Assembly: GCA_021811385.1 (NCBI GenBank)
Contig: JAJZPC010000024.1
Span: 1-33,662 of the forward strand
From: Deltaproteobacteria bacterium
GTDB taxonomy: Bacteria > Desulfobacterota > Desulfobulbia > Desulfobulbales > Desulfurivibrionaceae
Direction of reading: 5' to 3'
Length of the DNA: 33,662 nucleotides
Position numbers and translations under genes: made by a program. The notes under the pieces were generated by a model. The model saw only the letters and a list, made by a program, of their open reading frames with translations, did no database searches and had not been told where the DNA came from. Positions within the stretch are counted from its first letter, which is position 1; each line of letters starts with the position of its first letter. Shown in pieces: positions 1 through 5,504 of this stretch.

Positions 1-95
1 GGGCAAGGGGGTGGGTGAAGGTGCCAACTAACCTCGCCCTGGGCAGAGTTCCCCCTCACCCCAACCCTCTCCCGCCAAGGGAGAGGGAGTCAAGC
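1..95. repeat. GC-rich intergenic repeat, copy 1 (left of hicAB)
   Basis: This non-coding stretch contains a G-rich segment (GGGGGTGGGTGAAGGTGC) followed by C-rich DNA and a short hairpin in which CCCTCTCCC pairs with GGGAGAGGG (70-88). The same arrangement in the same orientation occurs at about 745-872, on the other side of hicAB. This kind of sequence is common as dispersed intergenic repeats in high-GC proteobacteria. The left end is cut by the window edge. Confidence 0.6.
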
Positions 96-422
96 CTGCG
101 TCGCCTCTTTAATGACTTTTGCCGCCCACTGGTTAAGACTTTTACCTGCAAGCGCCGCAGCTCGTAACGCTGCGGCGTGTACCTCCGGCGGCACCCGCAA
201 CATAAGCTTGCCGGATGCCGGTTTCTGCGGTTCTCTCCCGATCTTTTCACAGGTTTCGATGTAGTCATCAACCGCTTCTGCAAAGGCGGCATGCAACTCT
301 TTTACTGTATCGGCATGAAACCCGACGATATCGTGGATGCCCGCTATATGGCCGACAAAGATATCATCGCGTTCGTCAAACTCAATCCGGGCCGCATATC
401 CCTTGTAGTTCATAGTGTTCAT
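90..422 (-). CDS. hicB: HicB-family antitoxin
   Basis: This 110-residue protein matches HicB antitoxins. The N-terminal half has the partial RNase H-like fold seen in the family (YKGYAARIEFDERDD, then a GFHADTVKEL segment and a helix with AEAVDDYIETCE). The C-terminal 40 residues look like a ribbon-helix-helix DNA-binding segment (LMLRVPPEVHAAALRAA, then GKSLNQW). HicB would neutralise HicA and repress the operon. Its ATG overlaps the hicA stop in an ATGA junction, so translation is probably coupled. An in-frame ATG nine bases downstream (413) is an alternative start. The 3' end runs into the flanking repeat. Confidence 0.9.
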   Translation of the reverse strand: MNTMNYKGYAARIEFDERDDIFVGHIAGIHDIVGFHADTVKELHAAFAEAVDDYIETCEKIGREPQKPASGKLMLRVPPEVHAAALRAAALAGKSLNQWAAKVIKEATQA

Positions 423-673
423 TCTTTTACCCCCGCCGCCAGAAGAAAGGCTCTGGCATCTTCAACCTGATAGGGCTTTGCATCCTTTGAAGGATGCGGC
501 CTGTGGAAGGTGCCAACCGTACTGTTGATTACAAACCGTACCCGAGAACCACGACCTTCGATGGTTTCCGCACCAAGCGCAACAAACAAAGCCTCGATAC
601 GGTTCCATTCCACGGTTTTACATGTCGGAACCGCCAAAATTGCCTCAAGCGTTTTTTTGTGCTTACTGTTCAT
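419..673 (-). CDS. hicA: HicA-family mRNA interferase toxin
   Basis: This 84-residue protein is the usual HicA size and lies directly upstream of hicB, the standard toxin-first order. HicA toxins have a double-stranded-RNA-binding-like fold and cleave mRNA. Visible features are the N-terminal helix (KHKKTLEAILA), the strand region GRGSRVRFVINS and the HRPHP motif near residue 58. The more familiar GSH motif reads GSR here; from memory, many proteobacterial HicA proteins carry GSRVRF plus FHRPHP, so I do not treat this as inactivation. The start is the only ATG. It lies about five bases from a probable -10 box, so the transcript may be leaderless. Confidence 0.9.
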   Translation of the reverse strand: MNSKHKKTLEAILAVPTCKTVEWNRIEALFVALGAETIEGRGSRVRFVINSTVGTFHRPHPSKDAKPYQVEDARAFLLAAGVKE

Positions 674-902: not shown

Positions 903-941
903 AAAAAAACCGGCGGTTCGGAATATTCCGAACCGCCGGTT
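903..941 (-). terminator. Rho-independent terminator after the HAF-repeat gene
   Basis: A perfect 34-bp palindrome (908-941, centred on GAATATTC) is followed on the minus strand by seven T residues (909-903). It lies about 70 bases past the stop of the HAF-repeat gene and is part of the duplicated hook-gene tail. Confidence 0.85.
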
Positions 942-990
942 CAGGCAGGAGACCTGGGGTGTGACTATTACCGCTTGATGTTGATCAAAT
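903..990 (-). repeat. 88-bp direct repeat A: duplicated flgE tail plus terminator
   Basis: This segment aligns without gaps to 2293-2380 with, by my count, 12 mismatches in 88 positions. It contains a terminator hairpin and, at 970-990, the codons for LINIKR and a stop, the exact C-terminus of the FlgE hook protein encoded further right. Similarity continues weakly for about ten bases beyond 990. No other hook-gene sequence is visible here, so this is a relic fragment. Confidence 0.85.
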
Positions 991-1008
991 AAACCAGCAC
1001 CCCCACAC

Positions 1009-2106
1009 CTACTGGACTACTGGCGTCAACAGAAACGCATGTGACTTGTCGCCAATCGTGCCCACCCCAACGATCTGCCCCATGTCATTAATGGCATTTG
1101 CGTCAACCAACTTCAAACTTGATCCCGGTGCGATCAGGCTGTTCAGGTCAATCATGACGCCTCCATCCCAAAGGACGGCGATGTTGTTGTTTGCCCCAGG
1201 GATACTACCGGCAAACCCTACTATCTGGCCCACGTTGTTGATGCCGTACGCACTGCTACGCGTGACGCCCGGAAGGGTAGCGAGGTCATTCATGGTGCCA
1301 TCAGCCCAAAGAATGGCATGCGTGGTGCCTAAAGCGTCAACGGCCGACCCCACCACCTGCCCCGCGTTGTTGATGCATCTTGCCTCGCTAATAGTGCTAC
1401 GACTAAGCGTGCTCCCCGGGAGAACACCAAGGTCGGTCATGCCCTCGAGTCCATTCCATAGTACCGCGTGCTGAACACTGGTATCGTTGGGCAGATTGGA
1501 GCTGCCCACCACCTGGCCCGCATTGTTGATACTGGTAGCCGAACTGTGCCCGCTAATCCCGTACCAGTTCCCCAGATTAGTTCCTGCGTATTGACCAGAC
1601 AAAATGTATGCATGAGTATAGGGGCCCGACCAAAATTTAACCGTCCCAACCGCCTGGCCCGCATCGTTGATGGCACAAGCACCGCTAGACGACTTGCCGG
1701 CCCTGCCCCCAGGGCCTATATCAGTCATGACGCCATTTTTCCAGAGAAAGGCGTGAACCGTGAGGAGATTGGGGTTGGTAAAGTAGGTCCAAGAGTCTCC
1801 CACCACTTGACCCACATTGTTAATGGCATAGGCCCTGCTGTACTTGCCTCCAAATAGGGTACCGAGGTCGGTCATCGTACCATTCTGCCAGAGGAAGCCA
1901 TGCCGTACGGCCCAGTTAGCGTCATAGGTATGCCCAACCACCTGGCCCGCGTTGTTAATGCCGGCAGCGGCACTATGCGTGCCCCCCATAGTACCAAGAT
2001 CGGTTAACGTGTAGCGCACCTCCGCATGCGCTGGACCAGCGACAAATGCGACTACCACCCACATTGCAAAAACCAGATAACAGAACAGACCGTTTTTTTT
2101 CTCCAT
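1009..2106 (-). CDS. Secreted HAF-repeat (probable extracellular repeat) protein
   Basis: The predicted 365-residue protein starts with a clear signal peptide (MEKKNGLFCYLVFAMWVVVAFVAG, cleavage probably after AHA at residue 28). It then has seven repeats of about 45 residues marked by INNAGQVVG-type motifs, with alternating HAFLW.NG and MTDLGTL segments. These are the hallmarks of the HAF family of extracellular repeat proteins, whose function is unknown; a beta-propeller-like fold is my inference. The chosen ATG (2106) has a GGGGGGG stretch six bases upstream; an ATG at 2184 in the same frame would bury the signal peptide. There is no C-terminal sorting motif. The gene is bounded by duplicated hook-gene tails. 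Confidence 0.8.
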   Translation of the reverse strand: MEKKNGLFCYLVFAMWVVVAFVAGPAHAEVRYTLTDLGTMGGTHSAAAGINNAGQVVGHTYDANWAVRHGFLWQNGTMTDLGTLFGGKYSRAYAINNVGQVVGDSWTYFTNPNLLTVHAFLWKNGVMTDIGPGGRAGKSSSGACAINDAGQAVGTVKFWSGPYTHAYILSGQYAGTNLGNWYGISGHSSATSINNAGQVVGSSNLPNDTSVQHAVLWNGLEGMTDLGVLPGSTLSRSTISEARCINNAGQVVGSAVDALGTTHAILWADGTMNDLATLPGVTRSSAYGINNVGQIVGFAGSIPGANNNIAVLWDGGVMIDLNSLIAPGSSLKLVDANAINDMGQIVGVGTIGDKSHAFLLTPVVQ

Positions 2107-2291
2107 TCGCATCCCCCCCATCAGATCGTTAGTTACGGTGCAGATAACGCGGCGTGCCCCACCCCTGCCACAATTCGCCACCATCCATGGTGTACATCTG
2201 TACCCAAAATCGCCTTTACGAAAAACCTACCCGACAAAAGGAGCGCAAGCAAGACAAAATATCAGACGCGCTTGAGCCTGTCAAAAAAACC

Positions 2292-2330
2292 AAAAAAAAC
2301 CGGCGGCCCGGAATATTCCGAACCGCCGGC
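2292..2330 (-). terminator. Rho-independent terminator of fliK-flgD-flgE
   Basis: The hairpin CCGGCGG..CGGAAT/ATTCCG..CCGCCGG (2300-2329) is followed on the minus strand by eight T residues. Two arm positions form U-G pairs in the transcript. It lies about 28 bases after the flgE stop codon. Confidence 0.85.
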
Positions 2331-2380
2331 TAAGGCAGGAGACTTGGGCTAAAAAGCTTACCGCTTGATGTTGATCAAAT
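2293..2380 (-). repeat. 88-bp direct repeat B: native flgE tail plus terminator
   Basis: This is the partner of the repeat at 903-990, 1390 bp away in the same orientation. Here the LINIKR-stop codons are the real end of flgE and the hairpin is its terminator. The interval 2107-2291 between the HAF gene and this repeat has no gene that I can support. Confidence 0.85.
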
Positions 2381-4793
2381 CCGCCAGCATCTCGTCGGTG
2401 GTGGTAATGATCTTGGAGTTGGCCTGGAATCCGCGCTGGGTGGTGATCAGCTTGACGAACTCCGCGCCCAGATCGACGTTGGACTGTTCCAGCGAGTTGG
2501 GCGAGATCGTGCCCAGGCCGTTGGTTGCAGGCGGACCGGTGATGGGTGCGCCGGACTCACTGGTTTCCCGGAAGATATTGCCGCCCTCCTTGCTGAGCCC
2601 GGCCAGGTTGTTGAAGCTGGCCAGCGCCACCTGGGCCCTTTCCAGAACCTGTCCGTTGGAGTAGTTGCCGGTGATGACCCCGTCGGTATCCACGGAAACC
2701 GACTGCAAAAAGCCCGCGGCAAACCCGTTCTGATCCTGAAAGATGGTGGTGGAGCTGTTGGCGTACTGGGTGGTGGACAGCGCCTCGGTGCTGAAATTGA
2801 TGCTCATCGTGTCCCCGACCAGACTGCCATCCTCGCCGCTGGCATCGGCGGCAATGGTGGTGAATGTTGCTGCACCAAAAGGAGATGCGTTATCAAGAGG
2901 TGCCCCCACCGGAAAATCAGGATTTGTTATCGAGGTGATTTCCAGCTGGCTGTGATACCCGGTGGCGGCAACCTCATCGGCCACCCGGTCGGTGAGCACC
3001 AGACGCCCCGCGCCATCAACGGACGCTTCGGCTTGAAACGTATCTTCCAGCCAGGTAAGCAGATCCTGCATGGTGGGAGGACTGTTGGGTGTGGTGAGGG
3101 GCGGGCCAAAGTTGGTACCCACCGTAAAAGTTGCGGCAACAACCGGTGTGCCATCTCCACGAAATCCGTCAAAAGTCAGAACATCCGTAGCAGTGAGGGC
3201 GACCCCCGCACTGTCGAACACGCTGGTCAATGGCGTACTGTCATTGATTGGCGTTGAGCCACCAGAAGTAGTCACAGCCCGGGCCGTGGAGACCACCTGC
3301 TGTTTCGCGGTGGTGATATTAAAGGTATTGGTGGTGGCGTCGCTGACGCCAAAGGGATTCACCCCGGCGCTGAAGGTAAAGGTGGTCACGGCCAGGCCGC
3401 TGGCGCCGCCGGTGGCATCGGTCATCTTGATCCGCCCCATGGCGTCGATGGTGGAAGTGACATTGAAGGTGGTATCCAGGACATCGAGCAGATCCTGAAT
3501 CTTGTCGGTGGCGGCAAGGGTATAGGTGCTGTTCACCGCGGCCCCGCTGTTATCATAGCCGGCAAAGGTCACCACCGCCGGAGTACCGGTGTCGACCAGG
3601 GTGCCGGCGCTGTCATACACCGTATTCCAGAGGGTTTCCTTGGTGATGGGCGTCGAGGTTCCGGCGGTGGCATAGGCTGCGCCACCGCTGACCAGAATCT
3701 GACTGACTGCGGTGGCCTGACCGCTGTACCGGGCGCCGAGATTGAGCTCGATCATCTGGTTGGTCGTAGCGCCGGTGAAGTTCGCGGCAAAGGAGTAGTA
3801 CTGGTCCGTATTGCCCAAGGTAAGCAGATTGGTGCTCTGGGCCGGGTCCACCTCGGCGTCGGGCGGCACGTTCCAGGCGGTGATATTGCTGATGGCACCG
3901 GAGGTGGAGAAATCCAGCACCCCATAGAGCAGGGCGCCGGCGCCCTTGTGGTTCTGGTAGTTGTAGGTGGTATCCGGGGTGTAGATGGAAGCCTCGTCGT
4001 TGGTGCCGTCCAGGGCGCCGGTGGTATCACGGCCGGTGGTCAGCATCCGGTTGTCCTCGCTGGGTTCGCAGGTGACCAGAAACTCCCACTGGTTATCCTC
4101 GGTGGTGCGGTCGAAATAGACGGTGAGGTCATGGCTCGCACCCACGGAGTCATACACCTTGATGGCGGTGGTGTACTCATAGGCCGCGGCGTCGATGGGA
4201 GAGGCGGGCACGGGCAGCGCGGGGTTGGTGCCGTTCCAGGCGTCGAACAGACGCTGCTCGGTGGTTTCATTGTTCTTCCGGGAATCCACGTTGGCTATGA
4301 CCTGGATACCGGTGGTTGCAACCGGGGGGGTGGTCTTGCCGAGATTGATGTCGCCGATGGTGCCCTGCCGCTCGCCGGAGGTGGTGTCCAAGGTCCACCC
4401 CTGGACAAAGTTGCCGGTGGGATTGACCAGATAGCCTTCCTTGTCGAACCGGAATTCTCCTGCCCGGGTGTACATATCCGCCTCGGCGCTGCCTGAGGCC
4501 CGCAGCATGAAGAAGCCCTGGCCGCCGATGGCCAGATCGGTGGCGGTGGAGGTGGACTCGAACGAGCCCTGGGCAAAGATGCCGTCGATGGTGGTCATGG
4601 TCACACCGCGTCCGACCTGGGCCGCGCCCGCGGCAGTGGCCACGCTCTGGGACAGTACATCCTGGAAGGTGGCTCGGCTTGATTTGAAGGCGATGGTGTT
4701 GACGTTGGAAACGTTATCACCCAAAACGCTCATGGCGTTGCCCATGGTGCTGAGACCACTGATACTTGCGTACAACGAACTTGAAACACCCAT
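2358..4793 (-). CDS. flgE: Flagellar hook protein FlgE, long form
   Basis: The 811-residue product is a hook protein, about twice the length of E. coli FlgE. The N-terminus (GVSSSLYASISGLSTMGNAMSVL... to about residue 100) has the rod/hook signature with DNVSNVNTIAFK. The C-terminus (about 762-811) has the conserved SNVDLGAEFVKLITTQRGFQAN segment and ends LINIKR. The extra length lies in the surface-exposed middle. Residues about 378-482 and 511-640 look like two copies of one insertion domain: each has STPI, then a VYDSAG/VFDSAG segment, VTFAGYD/LTFDGFR, a QDLL..L..TF stretch, a D..GR...TD strand and a terminal NPFG/SPFG. A strong Shine-Dalgarno (AGGAGGT, six bases before ATG) fixes the start. 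It is last in the fliK-flgD-flgE unit. Confidence 0.96.
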   Translation of the reverse strand: MGVSSSLYASISGLSTMGNAMSVLGDNVSNVNTIAFKSSRATFQDVLSQSVATAAGAAQVGRGVTMTTIDGIFAQGSFESTSTATDLAIGGQGFFMLRASGSAEADMYTRAGEFRFDKEGYLVNPTGNFVQGWTLDTTSGERQGTIGDINLGKTTPPVATTGIQVIANVDSRKNNETTEQRLFDAWNGTNPALPVPASPIDAAAYEYTTAIKVYDSVGASHDLTVYFDRTTEDNQWEFLVTCEPSEDNRMLTTGRDTTGALDGTNDEASIYTPDTTYNYQNHKGAGALLYGVLDFSTSGAISNITAWNVPPDAEVDPAQSTNLLTLGNTDQYYSFAANFTGATTNQMIELNLGARYSGQATAVSQILVSGGAAYATAGTSTPITKETLWNTVYDSAGTLVDTGTPAVVTFAGYDNSGAAVNSTYTLAATDKIQDLLDVLDTTFNVTSTIDAMGRIKMTDATGGASGLAVTTFTFSAGVNPFGVSDATTNTFNITTAKQQVVSTARAVTTSGGSTPINDSTPLTSVFDSAGVALTATDVLTFDGFRGDGTPVVAATFTVGTNFGPPLTTPNSPPTMQDLLTWLEDTFQAEASVDGAGRLVLTDRVADEVAATGYHSQLEITSITNPDFPVGAPLDNASPFGAATFTTIAADASGEDGSLVGDTMSINFSTEALSTTQYANSSTTIFQDQNGFAAGFLQSVSVDTDGVITGNYSNGQVLERAQVALASFNNLAGLSKEGGNIFRETSESGAPITGPPATNGLGTISPNSLEQSNVDLGAEFVKLITTQRGFQANSKIITTTDEMLADLINIKR

Positions 4794-4835: not shown

Positions 4836-5504
4836 TCACTGAACTACCAGGATATCGCCGACATTCATCGTTACAGTCTTATCCACCGTTACCTGGGCCA
4901 CGCCGCCGTCGAAATTCACGCCGGTGACCTTCCCGGTTGTCCGGTAATCAACATCAACCTCCTGCCCCAGGGCATTCATGGCCTTGACAACGTAGGTGTA
5001 CTGTCCATCAGGCACCACCGTGCCGCTGGGGGTTTTCGCATCCCAACTCAACTCGTGCACGCCGGAGGCGGCATACCCGAGATCCGCCGTATCCACCATG
5101 CGGCCTGCCGCATCGTAAATCTCCACCTTGCAGGAATCAGCGGCGTCAGCCAGGGTGTACTCGGTGGTGGAAACAGCACCCGCCACCACGCCCATGGTGT
5201 TGCCGGTCCCCTGCACCTCCTTGCCGATCAGGGTCAGAAGCTGGAGATTGTTCTGCGAGGTCTGGTACTCAAGCAGTTTCTCCATGTTGTCGGACATCTT
5301 CATGGTGGCTTCCATATTGGAAAACTGGGCGAGCTGGGAAGCCATTTCCGTGCTGTCCATGGGCTCCAACGGATCCTGATGCTGCATCTGGGTGATGAAC
5401 AGGGTCATGAAATCGCTGCGATCCAGGGTTTTCTTGCCCACGGTCTTCATGGTCGTGGTGTCCTGGGTGGGCAGGGTCGCGGTGGTGCTTGCTGTGGTGG
5501 TCAT
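4836..5504 (-). CDS. flgD: Flagellar hook assembly scaffold protein FlgD
   Basis: This 222-residue protein has the FlgD N-terminal signature (residues about 27-70: DRSDFMTLFITQMQHQDPLEP followed by MASQLAQFSNMEA). The second half is an Ig/tudor-like beta region, with a FlgD Ig motif around DAAGRMVDTADLG and a WDAKTPSGTVVPDGQYTY stretch. FlgD caps the growing hook and is needed for FlgE polymerisation. The gene lies between fliK and flgE, which fits one hook-building transcript. A GAGGA Shine-Dalgarno precedes the ATG, and the gap from the fliK stop is 20 bases. Confidence 0.95.
   Translation of the reverse strand: MTTTASTTATLPTQDTTTMKTVGKKTLDRSDFMTLFITQMQHQDPLEPMDSTEMASQLAQFSNMEATMKMSDNMEKLLEYQTSQNNLQLLTLIGKEVQGTGNTMGVVAGAVSTTEYTLADAADSCKVEIYDAAGRMVDTADLGYAASGVHELSWDAKTPSGTVVPDGQYTYVVKAMNALGQEVDVDYRTTGKVTGVNFDGGVAQVTVDKTVTMNVGDILVVQ

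Follow-up and report, generated by a model that had tools for sequence, protein, structure and literature searches.

How did a HAF-repeat gene come to lie between two copies of the tail of the flagellar hook gene flgE, each copy ending in a terminator? The locus is part of a window of 33,662 nucleotides, the whole stretch of DNA that was analyzed, which is contig C44 of a draft genome (2.6 Mb, 75 % complete, 108 contigs) whose close relatives are uncultured Desulfobulbaceae/Desulfurivibrio-like bacteria. This genome is labelled G000 in our comparisons with the other genomes of the family (n = 26). The rpoB gene of the bin (L187, G000:C89) sits on a very long branch among the relatives of the genus and was therefore unusable as a species marker; its contig is probably a contaminant. 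Read on the minus strand, the gene order of the locus is fliK, flgD, flgE, inner tail with terminator, HAF, outer tail with terminator, a dispersed repeat, hicA, hicB, a second dispersed repeat and the contig end (Table 1). The repeats that bracket hicAB are GC-rich (CCCTCACCCC...CTCTCCCGC; window 1-87 and about 750-870) and occur in many copies scattered through genomes of the genus. An earlier note on this DNA had offered two readings of the arrangement: either a tandem hook-gene copy was lost and replaced, or recombination at the flgE tail brought in the HAF gene, which thereby gained a ready-made terminator.

Table 1. Coordinates of the features of the flgE-HAF locus within the window.
Feature	Position	Strand	Basis
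hicB antitoxin	90-422	-	Pfam HicB; 94.5 % amino acid identity to the gene beside flgE in G023
hicA toxin, ancestral right-hand neighbour of flgE	419-673	-	Pfam HicA_toxin; adjoins flgE in G023
Outer copy: stranded flgE tail, stop, spacer, terminator	903-999	-	Repeat alignment; closest orthologue is the G013 tail, 89/102
Terminator 2, now downstream of HAF	907-942	-	Hairpin, -31.0 kcal/mol
9-bp joint, HAF stop codon to stranded flgE tail (novel junction)	1000-1008	-	Sequence; flgE identity ends at TGCTGG
HAF-repeat gene (370 aa; predicted beta-propeller with probable signal peptide)	1009-2121	-	TIGR02913 E 1.9e-60, DUF3466; mechanical ORF start 2184
Promoter-like TTGACA-17-TATTTT, TG before second hexamer; possible HAF promoter	2256-2284	-	10/12 matches; chance alone would give 1.4 such sites in the stretch scanned
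Inner copy, joined to flgE: final flgE codons with stop, spacer and terminator	2293-2389	-	Repeat alignment; 93/97 identical to G018 orthologue
Terminator 1 (flgE)	2298-2331	-	Hairpin, -28.7 kcal/mol
flgE, flagellar hook protein, 811 aa, intact	2358-4793	-	Pfam FlgE_D2, Flg_bbr_C; TIGR03506
Recombination breakpoint in flgE	4665-4671	.	Sites shared with G018 on one side and with G019 on the other

The two copies form a direct repeat of 97 bp that aligns without gaps at 82/97 identical positions (85 %), in the same orientation and with a start-to-start spacing of 1390 bp. The earlier note had described the repeat as 88 bp at about 86 %, equally oriented, 1390 bp apart and enclosing the HAF gene, a description that holds apart from the slightly different length and identity. 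The similarity is far above chance, as no other ungapped alignment of the outer copy within the window exceeded 42/97 (mean 24.1, sd 4.3). Upstream of TGCTGG the identity drops to background, which agrees with the claim that the outer copy carries no other hook sequence. On the minus strand, each copy consists of 32 nt of the flgE end (29/32 identical), a 27-nt spacer (18/27), a terminator stem (28/31) and a T run (7/7). Within the flgE end, the last 23 nt, comprising six whole codons and the stop, are identical at all 23 positions; the contrast between this coding block (0/23 changed) and the spacer (9/27 changed) is significant (Fisher p = 0.002). Both hairpins are strong intrinsic terminators, with z about -7.

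In near relatives, the flgE end is followed by a variable spacer that contains a CCCAGGTCTCCTGCCTG-like core and then by a CCGGCGGTTCGG...CCGCCGG hairpin with a run of T's. Across the 26 relatives, the unit was found nowhere but at the flgE 3' end; a second copy is present only in this genome, where the search suggested earlier returned two copies, both at the flgE-HAF locus. Many copies unlinked to flgE, which the earlier note had named as the mark of a dispersed element, were found neither in the genome nor in the relatives, and a dispersed repeat or REP element is thus ruled out.

The gene between the copies matches NCBIfam TIGR02913 (HAF_rpt) with 200.5 bits in six stretches, compared to a cut-off of 22.65, and also Pfam DUF3466. 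The N-terminus shows a hydrophobic helix (10-27) followed by AHA-E, both in the sequence and in the structure model, and is probably a signal peptide. With a pLDDT of 84, a pTM of 0.84 and structure matches to propellers, the model confidently predicts a beta-propeller, and the protein would probably be secreted. Like other HAF repeat proteins, the protein has six HAF repeats and probably a signal peptide, and it ends after the last repeat (...AFLLTP), as aligned homologues do; it differs from them in having no PEP-CTERM-like anchor and in being the only member found in this bacterial family, since the gene is missing from all 26 other genomes searched. Its reading frame closes with its own stop codon (TAG, 1009-1011), 9 bp short of the outer copy, and differs from that of the stranded flgE codons, which rules out a fusion of HAF to the flgE tail. 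The promoter-like site in Table 1 directly follows terminator 1.

Within the class, HAF occurs in 13 of 258 genomes, the window genome included, and its distribution is patchy. The best homologue in the phylum sample is 49 % identical, and a search for a donor in class and phylum gave none above this value among the main matches. Furthermore, HAF is poorer in GC (0.55, GC3 0.63) than flgE (0.61, GC3 0.77). Homologues exist on plasmids (<45 % identical), and a viral carrier was rejected after viral contigs had been searched for relatives and none was found. Judged from distribution and composition, HAF is foreign to this family of bacteria.

The novel segment has a length of about 1.29 kb and contains one gene, HAF; a recombinase gene was sought in it, and HAF was the only gene recognised. 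These results bear on the idea that a small or decayed element integrated site-specifically at the flgE 3' end, with the two tails as attL and attR. The 23-bp identical block amid diverged sequence does resemble an att core and the end of the gene would have been restored, but the insert has no recombinase-like gene, the unit does not occur away from flgE in the 26 relatives, HAF has no relatives in the viral contigs and the inner tail is near-identical to that of G018, which carries no such element. We therefore regard this explanation as highly improbable.

The ancestral state of the site can be read from the relatives. The earlier note had proposed a search of related genomes for an empty site, and such a site was found in G023, where flgE and its terminator are followed by hicAB and then by a convergent second hook-like gene, flgE2. 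Positions 92-584 of the window match G023 at 90 %, and traces of hicB are present in the flgE-flgE2 interval of G018, G015, G014, G024 and G012. The outer copy continues into GTGGGG-AAG, which also follows the terminator of G018 and of G025. The inner copy lacks this continuation and runs into sequence that is absent from every relative compared. Because the relatives show the order flgE tail, terminator, hicAB, the outer copy keeps the ancestral right-hand neighbour.

The same synteny bears on a chimeric assembly of the metagenome bin, which we consider very unlikely. The bin is a draft of 108 contigs, 75 % complete, and at least one contig is probably foreign (the long-branched rpoB), yet both ends of the locus have their expected neighbours, flgE on one side and hicAB, as in G023, on the other. 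Moreover, the HAF-tail joint does not fall on the only long word shared by the two copies but 9 bp ahead of it, and even a misjoin at that word would require a genuine flgE tail behind HAF.

In most relatives, flgE2 (e.g. G018:C14:74838-76718) is found 0.4-2.4 kb downstream of flgE, in convergent orientation and with about 40 % identity to it. No flgE2 was seen in this draft, in which the contig stops short of the gene. A tandem, near-identical flgE in the same orientation was found neither in this genome (75 % complete) nor in any other genome of the family, so that the search for a second flgE proposed earlier yielded only this convergent gene. The idea of a lost tandem hook-gene copy thus loses ground: a duplicate of flgE, either the genome's own or imported, would once have lain downstream, and HAF would have replaced all but its tail. 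Such a history accounts for a tail and terminator beside the ancestral neighbour, and a second copy that was imported or old would be as diverged as an orthologue; against it stand the absence of any tandem copy in the family and the need for a copy gain, a copy loss and a HAF gain. A recent duplicate of the genome's own gene would not combine 15 % divergence with an unchanged coding block, which also disfavours a recent in-genome duplication followed by drift. Overall, we consider a lost tandem copy unlikely.

The divergence between the two tails is itself informative. They differ at 15/97 sites (15 %), and G000 typically shares about 85-90 % nucleotide identity with G018, G009, G013 and G019 over 1-kb tiles; the difference between the tails is thus about equal to that between species of the genus. 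In a tree of the tails, the inner copy groups with G018 (80/77) and the outer copy with G013 (64/84), both with weak support. A clade of inner and outer tails is disfavoured, although short of rejection for tails of this shortness (p-AU 0.07). For flgD, G019 is a close relative, but the outer tail shows no special closeness to it, which counts against the explanation favoured below. Since the stranded codons are unchanged (0/23) and the spacer is not (9/27), the copies probably diverged as the ends of two working flgE genes. Decay after an old in-place duplication is disfavoured, because drift should have struck codons and spacer alike. These data are consistent with orthologous tails that stem from two lineages, one tail having been orphaned recently.

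Signs of allele exchange are also present in the body of the hook gene. Informative sites switch sharply at the breakpoint (82:27 vs 24:146), a contrast reached in 0 of 5000 shuffles, with site classes that were picked after the identity table had been viewed. On one side, flgD (4836-5504) groups G000 with G019/G023 (100/100), and a grouping with G018 is rejected (p-AU 1e-4). On the other side, flgE 2390-4540 groups G000 with G018/G009/G013 (100/100), and the part 3800-4540 groups it with G018 alone, with rejection of the background branching seen in most C29 segments (p-AU 3e-4). As site classes and trees change sharply within flgE, alleles were exchanged in the hook gene, and the flagellar operon is, as judged from these trees, a mosaic between species of the genus. 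Sites joining G000 with G019 return around 2780-3490, so that the putative imported tract is not uniform as far as the 3' end and more than one tract may be involved. G018 could also have been the recipient of the exchange, and HAF may have been inserted in an event other than the one that left the mosaic breakpoint.

The breakpoint further bears on an integration of a circular molecule that carried a short flgE tail, a terminator and HAF, through one crossover within the tail, the route suggested for Rhs tips (PMC2935791). Such a circle would produce the observed order and would give the inner and outer tails separate origins, and the identical 23-bp block could hold the crossover. Homology would, however, extend over only about 100 bp at 85 %, and the breakpoint at the other end of flgE would be left unexplained. 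This origin of the locus seems quite unlikely to us.

The two ortholog-grade tails, the native neighbour of the outer one, the foreign HAF gene and the mosaic flgE, all visible in the sequence comparisons, are best accommodated by a recombination scar with a foreign HAF gene and a stranded allele (probability about 0.6). The incoming DNA would have come from a different lineage of the genus and would have held flgE with its terminator and, downstream, HAF; it would have recombined homologously inside flgE, where the breakpoint near 4665 is observed. The far, non-homologous end of this DNA would have been joined illegitimately within the last codons of the resident flgE. The resident hook gene would thus have been replaced save for its last 8-9 codons, stop and terminator, a remnant stranded and still attached to hicAB. 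The stranded terminator would now close the HAF transcription unit, with terminator 1 still closing flgE, and the stranded tail would have no role beyond terminating HAF. We assign a lower probability to the stricter claim that one single event of this kind made the whole locus; a common event behind all features, its direction and the expression of HAF are what we infer from the arrangement. No donor with the order flgE-HAF was found, which counts against this account. In outline, the second reading of the earlier note is supported, as HAF is absent in 26/26 relatives, an empty site exists and the outer terminator is placed to close the HAF unit. A simple insertion into one tail is less apt, as the two tails look like alleles of different species and flgE is mosaic, which points to an allele exchange with a stranded remnant.

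A core flagellar gene would have served as the anchor of this process, which would be a case of homology-facilitated illegitimate recombination (HFIR) or of 3'-end displacement. In the laboratory, HFIR combines one homologous end with one illegitimate end at 3-10 bp of microhomology, and about 1 kb is inserted and deleted; it is known in S. pneumoniae, A. baylyi, P. stutzeri and E. coli (PMC3240628). Of the features expected for these processes, a homologous crossover on one side is seen at 4665-4671 and in the trees and would be tied to the HAF event, and a remnant of the 3' end of the displaced gene is seen as the outer tail on its ancestral neighbour. At the HAF-tail joint, the six bases TGCTGG match in register and fall within the range reported for HFIR (PMC3240628). 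The next three (TTT for CGG) match no flgE examined and do not fit a clean microhomology joint, and the joint as a microhomology junction is suggestive only. As reconstructed, the locus would resemble HFIR in the pairing of one homologous with one illegitimate end at short shared bases and in an insertion coupled to a comparable loss in the recipient; in contrast to HFIR in the laboratory, it is read from sequence alone, its anchor is a core flagellar gene and what disappeared from the recipient would be another allele of that same gene.

Newcomer genes with displaced 3' remnants next to them are also known from T6SS effector loci of Vibrio cholerae (PMC5361080) and from rhs loci (PMC2935791). 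The likeness of our locus to T6SS effector and Rhs C-terminal tip displacement lies in a laterally acquired module beside a conserved anchor, with the 3' part of the older gene shunted downstream. Here, however, there is no effector-immunity logic, the remnant comprises only 8-9 codons and a terminator, and the newcomer is an unrelated, predicted secreted propeller. A closer parallel to the scar is offered by the sister species G018 (L154, G018:C14, about 73847-74640), in which the flgE terminator is followed by a different hicA-hicB pair; behind this pair, before flgE2, stand the final ~22 codons of an old hicB (ALAGKSLNRWAAKVIKEAAQV, stop). This arrangement reads as a parallel scar at the same spot. 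In G009 (L036 8910-10754) and likewise in G013 (L037), the flgE-flgE2 interval carries a gene for a 614-aa sulfatase-family (PF00884) protein. As judged from these genomes, the interval turns over.

A literature search on a hotspot adjacent to flgE returned nothing specific. Tentatively, and with more doubt than confidence, the flgE-flgE2 interval might be a standing gene-capture spot in the genus. The hook gene would then repeatedly serve as the homology anchor that traps linear foreign DNA (toxin-antitoxin pairs, the sulfatase-family gene, HAF), each event would leave a short 3' remnant of the displaced gene, and the strong hook terminator would be re-used to insulate the newcomer.

The event belongs to a known kind and is a fairly ordinary gene capture. 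Its value lies in a readable scar of one such capture in an uncultured lineage of the sulfur cycle, in which the two ortholog-grade tails, the native neighbour and the foreign gene together allow the event to be reconstructed. The parallel scar in the sister species suggests repeated use of the spot. Short duplicated gene tails with terminators can mark inter-species recombination, rather than duplications or mobile elements.
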